DNA of 10,654 nucleotides from Candidatus Rokuibacteriota bacterium. GTDB lineage: Bacteria > Methylomirabilota > Methylomirabilia > Rokubacteriales > JACPHL01. This document shows, piece by piece, positions 3,826 to 7,107 of this stretch; positions within the stretch are counted from its first letter, which is position 1; each line of letters starts with the position of its first letter. The notes below the pieces were generated by a model. That model saw nothing but the letters and a program-made list of their open reading frames with translations. It was not told where the DNA came from and ran no database searches. The position numbers and the translations under genes were made by a program. The DNA lies in the NCBI GenBank assembly GCA_016188625.1, contig JACPHL010000129.1, positions 1 to 10,654 on the forward strand, given 5' to 3'.

Positions 3826-5127
3826 ATGGCGCGGGAGTTCAAGCTGCCGGACCTCGGCGAGGGGCTCGCCGAGGCCGAGATCGTCCGGGTCCTGGTCTCG
3901 GAGGGCGACCTGGTCCGGGAGGATCAGATCGTCCTCGAGGTCGAGACCGACAAGGCCCAGGTCGAGCTCCCCTCCCCCTTCGCCGGCCGGGTGGGGCGCG
4001 TCCACGTCCGGGAGGGGGAGCGGGTCCCGGTCGGCGCGGTCCTCTTGAGCTTCGACGGCGGGGAGGGCGAGGCCGGGGCGCGGGAGCGCGCGCCGGCCCG
4101 CGCCGAAGACCGCGAACCCCCGCGCCCCTCCCCGGTCCCTGAACCCCGGGCGGAGCCCGAGGCCGAGCCCCGGCGCGGCAGACCCGTCCCCGCGGCGCCT
4201 ACCACCCGGCGCTTGGCCCGAGAGCTCGGCGTGGACCTCAGGCTGGTGCGGGGATCCGGGCCCGGCGGGCGGGTCCTGGCCGAGGATGTCCGCGCCTTCG
4301 CCGAGACCCCGGCGCGCCGGGAGGCGGCGGGCGCGCCGGTCCCGGAGCGGGCCGAGGCGCGGCCGCTGGCGGTCGTCCCCCGTGGCCTCGAGATCCCGCC
4401 CCTCCCGCGGTTCGAGCAGTGGGGGCCGGTCGAGCGACAGCCGCTCCGCTCCGTGCGCCAGCGGATCGCCGAGCGGATGACCCTGGCCTGGGCGGTGGTC
4501 CCCCACGTGACCCACTTCGACCAGGCCGACATCACCGACCTCGAGCTCCTGCGCCGCCAGCACCAGACCCAGGCCCGCGAGACCGGGGGCCCCGAGGTCA
4601 CCCTCACCGCCTTCGTGGTCAAGGCGGTGGTCGCCGCCCTCCAGGCCCACCCGCCGTTCAACGCCAGCCTGGACCACGAGGCCGGCGAGCTGGTCCTGAA
4701 GCGCTACTACCACGTCGGGGTCGCGGTGGACACCGGCCGCGGGCTCATCGTCCCCGTGATCCGGGACGCCGACAAGAAGGGCCTCGTCGAGCTGGCGGCC
4801 GAGCTGGCCGACCTGGCCCGCCGGACCCGCGAGGGGAAGATCGAGCTCTCCGAGCTCCGGGGCGGGACCTTCACCATCACCAACATCGGCGCCATCGGCG
4901 GGACCGGGGCGATGCCGCTCGTCAACTACCCCGAGGCGGCGATCCTCGGCCTGGCGCGCGCCCGCGAGATGCCGGTGGTCCGGGACGGCCAGGTGGTCGT
5001 CCGGCGCATCCTGCCCCTGTCGCTCTCCTTCGACCACCGGGTGGCGGACGGCGCCGACGCCGCGCGCTTCGTCGCCCACATCGTCCGGAGTCTCGAGGAG
5101 CCGGGTCGGCTCCTCCTGGCCGGATAG
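3826..5127 (+). CDS. pdhC: Dihydrolipoamide acyltransferase (E2)
   Basis: Core subunit that moves the acyl group from E1 to CoA. 433 residues with the full domain order. One lipoyl domain spans about 1-77, with the lipoylated lysine expected at K43 in [17 protein letters not shown] Pro/Glu/Arg-rich linker follows (80-124). The peripheral subunit-binding domain is at about 125-158 ([26 protein letters not shown]), then a second linker, then the catalytic acetyltransferase domain from about 205. The active-site motif [15 protein letters not shown] (401-415) has H404 and D408 in place, and [13 protein letters not shown] (348-360) is typical. The start lies 5 bases after the E1 beta stop; the ribosome site is weak, so reinitiation is likely. 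A single lipoyl domain fits PDH or branched-chain complexes; the context favours PDH. Confidence 0.92.
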
Positions 5128-5138
5128 GCGACACCGCC

Positions 5139-6474
5139 ATGGTCATGGGCGACTTCGAGCGGGACGCCCAGGTGGTGGTCCTCGGCGGCGGGCCGGGAGG
5201 GTACGCGGCCGCGTTCCGGGCGGCCGACCTCGGGCTCGACACCGTGCTGGTGGACGCCGGCGGCCGGCTCGGGGGCGAGTGCCTCTTCCGCGGGTGCATC
5301 CCCTCCAAGGCCCTCCTCGGCGTCGCGGCGCTCCTCGGCGACGCGGCGCGGGCGAAGGGGCTCGGGATCGAGTTCGCGACCCCCCGGATCCGCCTCGAGG
5401 CCCTCCGCGCCTGGAAGGACGGGGTGGTGGAGCGGCTGGCCAAGGGCCTCGAGGCCCTCTGCCGGGCCCGCGGGGTGGAGCTGGTTCCGGGCCGGGCGAC
5501 CTTCGAGGACGGCCGCACCGTGCGCGTGGAGGGGGGCGGGCGGATCCGCTTCCGGCAGGCCATCGTCGCGACCGGCTCGCGACCGACCCCGCTCCCGGGC
5601 CTCGGGCTCGAGCGCCCCGGGGTCATGGACTCGGAGGCCGCCCTCGCCCTCCCGGAGATCCCCCGGAGCCTCCTGGTCGTCGGCGGTGGCTACATCGGCC
5701 TCGAGCTCGGGACCGTCTACGCCGCGCTCGGCAGCGAGGTCACCCTGGTCGAGCTGACCGACGGCCTCCTCCCCGGCGTGGACCGGGACCTGGTGGCGCC
5801 GGTCGCCCGGCGGACCGCCGAGCTCTTCAAGGCGGTCGCCCTCGGCACGAAGGTGGTGGAGCTGGCCGAGCGCGACGGGGGGATCGAGGTCCGGTTCGAG
5901 GGCGCCCTTGAGCCCGCCCGTCAGAGCTTCGAGCGCGTGCTGGTGGCGGTGGGGCGGCAGCCCAACACCGACGGGCTCGGGCTCGAGAGGACCGGCGTGG
6001 GCGTGGATGGGCGCGGGTTCATCCTCGTGGACGAGCGGCGGCGGACCCAGGACCCCCGGATCTACGCCATCGGCGACGTCGCCGGCGAGCCGATGCTCGC
6101 CCACAAGGCGATGCGGGAGGGGAAGGTGGCGGCCGAGGCGATCGCGGGGCGCCCAGGAGGCCCGGCGGAGCGGCCAGCCGGTGGAGGTCGCCCGTTTCCC
6201 CTGGAGCGCCTCCGGGCGCGCCCTGACCCTCGCGAGGCCGGAGGGGCTCACCAAGCTCCTGATCGATCCCGGGAGCAGGCTCGTCCTCGGGGCGGGGATC
6301 GTGGGCGCCCACGCCGGCGAGGTGATCGCCGAGGCGGCGCTGGCGATCGAGACGGCGGTCACCGCGGAGGACCTCGCCGCCACAATCCACACCCACCCCA
6401 CGCGCGCCGAGACGGTCATGGAGGCCGCCGAGGTCTTCCTCGGGAGCGCCACCCACCTCCGCCCTCGCCGCTGA
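5139..6474 (+). pseudogene. lpdA: Dihydrolipoyl dehydrogenase (E3), internal deletion and frameshift
   Basis: FAD/NAD flavoenzyme that reoxidises dihydrolipoamide on E2. Residues 1-338 read well: FAD site [14 protein letters not shown], redox disulfide [11 protein letters not shown] (C48, C53), [11 protein letters not shown] (144-154), NAD site [12 protein letters not shown] (180-191) and [17 protein letters not shown] (309-325). After AEAIAGR, at about 6152, the frame fails. It stays open to 6506 but yields only low-complexity residues. The dimerisation domain resumes one frame over from about 6154 ([16 protein letters not shown]) through the catalytic [10 protein letters not shown] to a TGA at 6472-6474. 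Against E. coli Lpd about 27 residues are missing, including the conserved VIPS-YTEPE-WVGLTE stretch. The frame change implies loss of a number of bases that leaves remainder 2 on division by 3, near 80. It could be a true pseudogene or an assembly or sequencing fault. It starts 11 bases after E2. Confidence 0.85.
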
Positions 6475-6491
6475 GGCGGGTCCGGCCCGCC
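6475..6491 (+). terminator. Hairpin directly after the E3 stop
   Basis: GGCGGG (6475-6480) pairs perfectly with CCCGCC (6486-6491) across a 5-base loop, starting at the base after the TGA. No T-run follows, so it is not a classical intrinsic terminator. It may slow polymerase, protect the 3' end, or be a chance GC hairpin. Confidence 0.3.
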
Positions 6492-6555
6492 CTGAGCCTG
6501 GGCTAGGAGTCTGTCCGGGGGCGCTGATGCGGCTCGCACTCTCGAGCACCTCGAC

Positions 6556-6643
6556 TCACGGATGGATGGTCCGCTTCGAGCGCCGGCTTTGCCGGCGCAA
6601 CCTCTGGGGGGAGGCTCGGAGGGGGGTGGAACCCCCCTTCGAG
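6556..6643. repeat. Two-hairpin tandem repeat, copy 1
   Basis: First of two direct, diverged copies beginning TCACG...GGATGG...GGTCCGCT. Hairpin A: GCGCCGGC (6580-6587), loop TTT, GCCGGCGC (6591-6598). Hairpin B: a 12-pair stem 6615-6626 with 6632-6643 (CTCGGAGGGGGG with CCCCCCTTCGAG, one G-T wobble) and loop TGGAA. No reading frame of note. It lies between converging gene ends, a usual place for repetitive extragenic palindromes. The stretch before it (6492-6555) shows nothing I recognise. Confidence 0.8.
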
Positions 6644-6645
6644 TA

Positions 6646-6735
6646 TCACGCGGATGGGTGGTCCGCTCCGAGCGCGGGCTCTGCCCGCGCAATCCTCGGG
6701 GGGAGGTCCGGAAGGGGGGCTTGGCCTCCCTCCGG
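6646..6735. repeat. Two-hairpin tandem repeat, copy 2
   Basis: Second copy, offset 90-93 bases from the first. Hairpin A: GCGCGGGC (6672-6679), loop TCT, GCCCGCGC (6683-6690). Hairpin B: CCGGA (6708-6712) and GGGGG (6714-6718) pair with CCTCC (6725-6729) and TCCGG (6731-6735), with one A-C mismatch and one wobble. Compared with copy 1, one pair in hairpin A and two in hairpin B changed on both sides so pairing is kept. It ends 5 bases before the stop codon of the minus-strand gene that follows. Confidence 0.8.
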
Positions 6736-6740
6736 GCCAG

Positions 6741-7004
6741 TTAGCGCGTGTCCCGGGTCGCCTCGGGTCGGGTCGGGACGGGCTCGCCCCACCACCGGTC
6801 CTTCTCGGCGGCGTCGACGTCGTGCTCCCGGACCACGGGCCGCCCGCCGAGGAGGCGGATGAGGGTCACCCGGATGGAGAACCACATGTGGTGATCGGTG
6901 GCGTACACGGTCTCGCGCCGGCCGTCCTGCTGCGCCTGAGCGAACGCCGGGATCGCGCTCCCGATCACCGCGAGGCTGATGAGGAGGGTCAGGAGGATCC
7001 GCAC
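6741..7004 (-). CDS. Small secreted protein of unknown function
   Basis: 87-residue protein I do not recognise. It begins MRILLTLLISLAVIGSAIPAF with Arg-2, a hydrophobic core and an AFA-QA or AQA-QQ cleavage site after about residue 22-24, so export across the inner membrane is expected. The mature part is about 63 residues, has no cysteine, and holds a paired His (TDHHMWFS, 36-43), an acidic-His stretch EHDVDAAEKD (60-69) and WW at 71-72. The GTG at 7004-7002 is chosen over an in-frame ATG at 7082-7080. An AAAGGAG ribosome site lies 5 bases upstream, the signal peptide begins right there, and the longer reading would start on the -35 box. It is single and divergent from the YkoP-like gene. 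Its codon use matches the window. Confidence 0.7.
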   Translation of the reverse strand: MRILLTLLISLAVIGSAIPAFAQAQQDGRRETVYATDHHMWFSIRVTLIRLLGGRPVVREHDVDAAEKDRWWGEPVPTRPEATRDTR

Positions 7005-7009
7005 GCTCG

Positions 7010-7016
7010 CTCCTTT
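7010..7016 (-). promoter_or_regulatory. Shine-Dalgarno of the small secreted protein gene
   Basis: The minus strand reads AAAGGAG, 5 bases before the GTG at 7004-7002. It is one of the clearest ribosome sites in the window and fixes the start at the signal peptide. Confidence 0.7.
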
Positions 7017-7057
7017 CGCTGGAAGGCTCATATCCGATCTGACGGGCCCTAAAAGGA

Positions 7058-7087
7058 ATACTACCGCCGCGTCTTCCGACATGTCAA
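7058..7087 (-). promoter_or_regulatory. Promoter of the small secreted protein gene
   Basis: The minus strand has a perfect -35 TTGACA (7087-7082), an 18-base spacer and a -10 TAGTAT (7063-7058, four of six to consensus). The expected start near 7051 gives a leader of about 46 bases ending in AAAGGAG and the GTG. It is the best sigma-70-type -35 placed usefully in this window. Confidence 0.6.
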
Positions 7088-7107
7088 CTTTCTGATCCTG
7101 ACGCGCG

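Follow-up and report, generated by a model that had tools for sequence, protein, structure and literature searches.

Among the described repeats of bacterial genomes, REP, BIME and REPIN elements are short, GC-rich, palindromic and extragenic, and occur behind genes in tens to hundreds of copies (PMC12306157, PMC3733652, PMC3116915). A REP or REPIN is defined by a palindrome of 20-40 bp, an unpaired GTAG or CGTC tag at one end and a link to a RAYT transposase (PMC3733652, PMC3116915). YPAL/RU-2 of Yersinia, at 168 bp, has internal inverted repeats, is not AT-rich, shows target duplications together with filled and empty sites, and may influence upstream transcripts; MITEs such as Correia/NEMIS, RUP and ERIC are non-autonomous, shorter than 200 nt, present in high copy and thought to be mobilized in trans (PMC2229807).

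The tandem pair considered here lies in a window (the whole stretch of DNA analyzed, 10,654 nt of contig JACPHL010000129.1 from a Candidatus Rokuibacteriota bacterium) and belongs to a repeat that behaves like these REP/MITE-like miniature elements. With REP, BIME and REPIN elements it shares small size, GC richness, palindromic arms and many extragenic copies that lie mostly downstream of genes; it differs from them in its longer unit of four hairpins, in having neither a GTAG/CGTC tag nor a RAYT link, and in holding an exact 4-nt register to a stop triplet. Its 72-nt core with two main hairpins does not correspond to the single tagged palindrome of a REP. Like MITEs, it is a short non-autonomous unit in high copy, found at both filled and empty sites, but it is GC-rich, its aligned copies show no clear terminal inverted repeats, and no matching insertion sequence was found for it. 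Compared by structure and behavior alone, YPAL, with its internal inverted repeats and possible effects on upstream transcripts, is the closest in build and in filled and empty sites; it comes from another lineage, and a stop-codon register is not described for it (PMC2229807). We regard the tandem pair as very probably a non-autonomous, REP/MITE-like mobile repeat of the order Rokubacteriales that lands at stop and start codons. The literature searched (most subscription papers lay outside the search) holds no description of this repeat for Rokubacteria, and, as far as those papers show, a very abundant repeat family of this uncultured order has gone undescribed.

A tandem pair of multi-hairpin units

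Two direct (head-to-tail) copies stand at an offset of 92, with 82% identity across 68 nt, and the region folds to -134.4 kcal/mol (z = -4.16), a value matched by none of 200 shuffles; the two-copy hairpin repeat seen in the first-pass annotation, with copies about 92 bp apart, is therefore secure. That reading had passed over a mini hairpin and a third hairpin, the distal tail reaching to about 6503, and the stop codon beside copy 2. The features of the pair and its neighbor are as follows, the hairpins being given without strand.

6503..6549, minus strand: distal tail of the element, ending at CTAG (6503-6506; tail consensus)
6550..6643, minus strand: monomer copy 1, second in gene-strand order (covariance model R1, 109.1 bits, E 9.4e-20)
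6551..6579: hairpin C of copy 1, outer stem 6551-6554/6576-6579, inner stem 6559-6563/6569-6573 (fold)
6580..6598: hairpin A of copy 1, 8 bp, stem 6580-6587/6591-6598, loop TTT (folds)
6601..6614: mini hairpin of copy 1 between A and B, loop C on the minus strand (fold)
6615..6643: hairpin B of copy 1, 13 bp on the plus strand, one A-C mismatch on the minus strand (fold)
6644..6736, minus strand: monomer copy 2, adjoining the stop codon of the minus-strand ORF (covariance model R1, 92.1 bits, E 3.6e-16)
6672..6690: hairpin A of copy 2, 8 bp, stem 6672-6679/6683-6690, loop TCT (folds)
6705..6738: hairpin B of copy 2 (fold)
6741..6743, minus strand: TAA stop codon of the adjacent ORF (sequence, context table)
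6741..7082, minus strand: small ORF with a signal-like N terminus and no Pfam match (ORF list, Pfam search)

In each unit, hairpin B, a CCTCCCCCC strand and hairpin A make up a conserved core of roughly 72 nt, to which a variable tail is joined; the consensus of that tail in other copies is GTTACTCGGACGGGCTC-CTAG. Copy 1 and the family consensus fold into four consecutive hairpins, of which copy 2 keeps three; the mini hairpin is paired in 87% of cells across 35 copies. A search of the window against Rfam gave no match above the gathering score, the best weak one being AaHKsRNA22 (E 0.97).

Between the TAA at 6743-6741 and the point where the model begins hairpin B there are 4 nt, and copy 2 itself comes to within 2-3 bases of this codon. 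Because this stop adjoins the element, and because a sigma-70-like promoter match (TTGACA, spacing 18, TAGTAT; 7087-7058, minus strand) lies upstream of the ORF, the tandem pair would begin the 3' UTR of a small minus-strand gene, whose start is probably further in than the ORF boundary. Elsewhere in the window, the dihydrolipoamide dehydrogenase gene shifts frame near 6160-6180, from ORF 4419-6506 to ORF 5908-6474, which is probably an assembly error or a broken gene.

An abundant family of the Rokubacteriales

The window's own genome is a 2.6-Mb MAG (344 contigs, 84% complete) in which a DNA search gave 40 scored places and a covariance model built from 35 monomers gave 149 copies at E<=0.01, a count that, although no more than 150 places were scored, is near complete, since scores fall to 33 bits. 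The closest relatives of the PDH E1 beta encoded in the window are Ca. Rokubacteria. The same model matches 58 of the 59 genomes of the order, the window's own included, and finds copies in one of 35 genomes from elsewhere in the class; a 39-base pattern of the core, matched exactly, occurs in 33 genomes, every one of them of the order, while the reversed control has no match. The covariance search of this and related genomes, proposed as a check in the first-pass annotation, thus turned up many further copies and not an isolated pair. Copy number varies widely within a single genus, from at least 144 in genome G048 and at least 71 in G035 to none in G045. A viral vector was considered and rejected, the exact core pattern being absent from viral contigs. 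Several copies in the window's own genome sit at contig ends (C58, C281, C35, C330, C320, C153 and C291), so the repeat probably breaks Rokubacteria assemblies and is undercounted.

Filled and empty sites

The C-terminal tails of genes preceding the element in G048, and of one such gene in G035, were located in congeners. Sites filled in G048 are empty in G035 and/or G045 at galT, lutA, pheT, rluD and mlaC, and likewise at an enolase-superfamily gene and an aminotransferase; at such empty sites little separates the gene from the next one. The overlapping GTGA that is ancestral at pheT and lutA has been divided, its stop lying ahead of the element and its start (or a duplicate of the start region) beyond it, and at the 3' site of an acyl-CoA dehydrogenase gene the ATGAGC that is single in G035 flanks the insert on both sides in G048. 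Insertion with a short target duplication explains both the split GTGA and the doubled ATGAGC, and the duplication is readable at these three junctions. Rows for pyrG and a MetE-like gene (no element after the stop in question) and for M48 (an array with poor synteny in congeners) were left out.

Because orthologous sites are filled in one genome and empty in another, some with a duplicated target that holds the start or stop, mobility of the repeat is well supported by these sequence comparisons, which cover sites in the congeners G048, G035 and G045. Across 58 copies of the window's own genome there is no target-duplication signal, and these copies may be older than the congener insertions. 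In 110 kb of PDH-operon loci from 13 Rokubacteria-type records, where synteny downstream of lpd is not kept, there are no copies.

Some insertions take other forms. Insertion has also taken place at a start codon and within the closing codons of a gene; at loci L244/L252 of G048 a metallopeptidase gene lost its final codons to the insertion and now ends at a stop in the hairpin B loop. A subtype at L237, L232, L241 and L238 of G048 and L071 of G035 carries a tail resembling a Shine-Dalgarno sequence, GAGAGGAGGGCAGTCC, immediately ahead of the start codon that follows. In several copies of this subtype an open frame of about 37 codons, beginning at an upstream RTG, crosses both hairpins, and at L238 it continues into the downstream gene.

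Register to the stop codon

Counted without gene calls, 50 of 102 copies in the window's own genome have a stop triplet ahead of hairpin B at a distance of exactly 4 nt, against about 1 expected from other spacers (7-30 nt). These stops are TAG in 34 cases, TAA in 11 and TGA in 5, whereas all called genes end in TGA (170) more often than in TAG (101) or TAA (51). Such an excess of TAG at the element, set against the excess of TGA in genes, points to a target sequence. Hairpin B is preceded by a YTAR-like flank and four variable bases, and a target such as YTAR, which would be rare in GC-rich coding DNA save at stops, is the simplest candidate cause of the register.

Gene context, read from calls by a codon model for which the window's own genes served as training set, agrees in direction: a same-strand gene lies on the hairpin B side of 74 of 105 copies, its stop mostly 0-6 nt away, and 2 of the 105 fall within called genes. 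It is the hairpin B end that faces the gene end, an orientation overlooked in the first-pass annotation, which had tied the element to converging genes. Converging settings account for 27 copies, against 38 same-strand, 22 opposite-strand and 2 diverging ones, and copies are placed by their register to the stop triplet, not by convergence.

The mechanism that we propose has copies moved in trans by an enzyme and inserted at target sequences containing a stop or start triplet (YTAR-like in the window's own genome, RTGAGC in the compared genus), with a short target duplication in the readable cases; because the target holds the triplet and is duplicated, neighboring genes would keep their stop and start. 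An inserted unit would then be transcribed as the first structured part of a 3' UTR, in which a GC hairpin, placed 4 nt past the stop codon, would stand in the way of 3' exonucleases or impede the ribosome at termination. In E. coli, REPs can reduce translation when fewer than 16 nt separate them from a stop codon (PMC12306157, PMC3733652, PMC3116915), and by analogy the hairpins here may act in mRNA. The fixed register makes any effect on mRNA ends and translation termination testable by simple reporters.

Paired changes and alternative explanations

Changes on both sides of a stem that preserve pairing had been taken as a sign of selection on a folded form. The change in hairpin A, from C6584-G6594 in copy 1 to G6676-C6686 in copy 2, is as first described. 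In hairpin B the change at T6616-A6642 is real, with C6708-G6735 as its partner, while a claimed second change there came from an off-by-one register: at offset 92, C6617-G6641 and G6618-C6640 match the unchanged C6709-G6734 and G6710-C6733. Two compensatory pairs, one in each hairpin, therefore separate the copies where three had been claimed. Across the aligned family, copy 2 alone carries the hairpin B change (U-A in 33, C-G in 1) and the hairpin A change is common (C-G in 19, G-C in 16). Related genomes do carry covariation beyond the two copies, and it exceeds shuffled and slid controls order-wide: a set of 34 copies drawn from some 20 genomes of the order has 98.8% of its stem cells paired and shows seven both-sided pair changes, compared with 2.1 in shuffles.

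The covariation is real, yet it is no proof of selection on RNA, because single-sided stem changes on the gene strand divide about evenly between G-U (110) and A-C (122), as expected of maintenance at the DNA level or of recent common origin, and because palindrome correction or a few source lineages would fit as well. A reading in which palindrome correction, by template switching between arms, or descent from a few source subfamilies produced the paired changes, and not selection on the fold, is a serious contender to which we give somewhat less than an even chance; it concerns the covariation alone and is compatible with a mobile repeat. It would account for wobble pairs without strand bias, for the recurrence of the same variants across many genera and for the rarity of intermediates, hairpin A in the window's own genome having three fully paired forms (55, 37 and 6 copies) and only 5 imperfect copies among 103. 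The order-wide pairing above shuffled and slid controls speaks against it, and a few clean source subfamilies fit poorly with the weak inheritance of the hairpin A state, which changes 28 times on a poorly resolved tree of the rest of the element, against 33.4 times when shuffled (range 27-38).

Two further readings concern the nature of the repeat itself. A functional 3' UTR module for termination, processing or stability, kept by selection and not mobile, would explain the strict place and preferred orientation behind stop codons, the core stems that are nearly all paired in 105 copies, and a distal end frequently beside a converging stop; we consider it unlikely in view of presence and absence at orthologous sites of congeners, a range of 0 to at least 144 copies in one genus, and insertions at a start codon and within the last codons of a gene. 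It also lacks a T-tract: intrinsic terminators (a GC hairpin with a T-tract) number zero in 6400-7100, which gives no support to the suggested bidirectional intrinsic termination. That the family is a classical REP or REPIN, its palindromes single or in inverted pairs, bearing GTAG or CGTC tags and moved by a RAYT, seems very improbable; the high-copy, extragenic, structured units at gene 3' ends and some inverted pairs in G048 recall such elements, but units run to about 95-140 nt with four hairpins, the conserved unpaired tag is absent, and the RAYT domain (Y1_Tnp, PF01797) is undetected in the window's own 84%-complete MAG. Y1_Tnp occurs in only 3 of 12 high-copy genomes and is unrelated to copy number (Spearman 0.01), against the suggestion that a RAYT-type transposase moves the repeat. 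What survives of the original REP/BIME-like comparison is the many copies at gene ends, without its RAYT link, termination or convergence.

Candidate mobilizers of the repeat

Besides RAYT, candidate mobilizers of the DDE_Tnp_1, IS256 (Transposase_mut) and IS110 families were undetected in the window's own genome, negatives limited by the incompleteness of MAGs; counts of DDE_Tnp_1, like those of Y1_Tnp, are unrelated to copy number, and five high-copy genomes have neither. A tentative synthesis, to which we give distinctly less weight than to mobility itself, is that the repeat homes to stop and start triplets and enters overlapping junctions with neither gene broken, that one subtype adds a Shine-Dalgarno-like tail and a short frame, and that the enzyme moving it may belong to none of the known REP/MITE transposase families.
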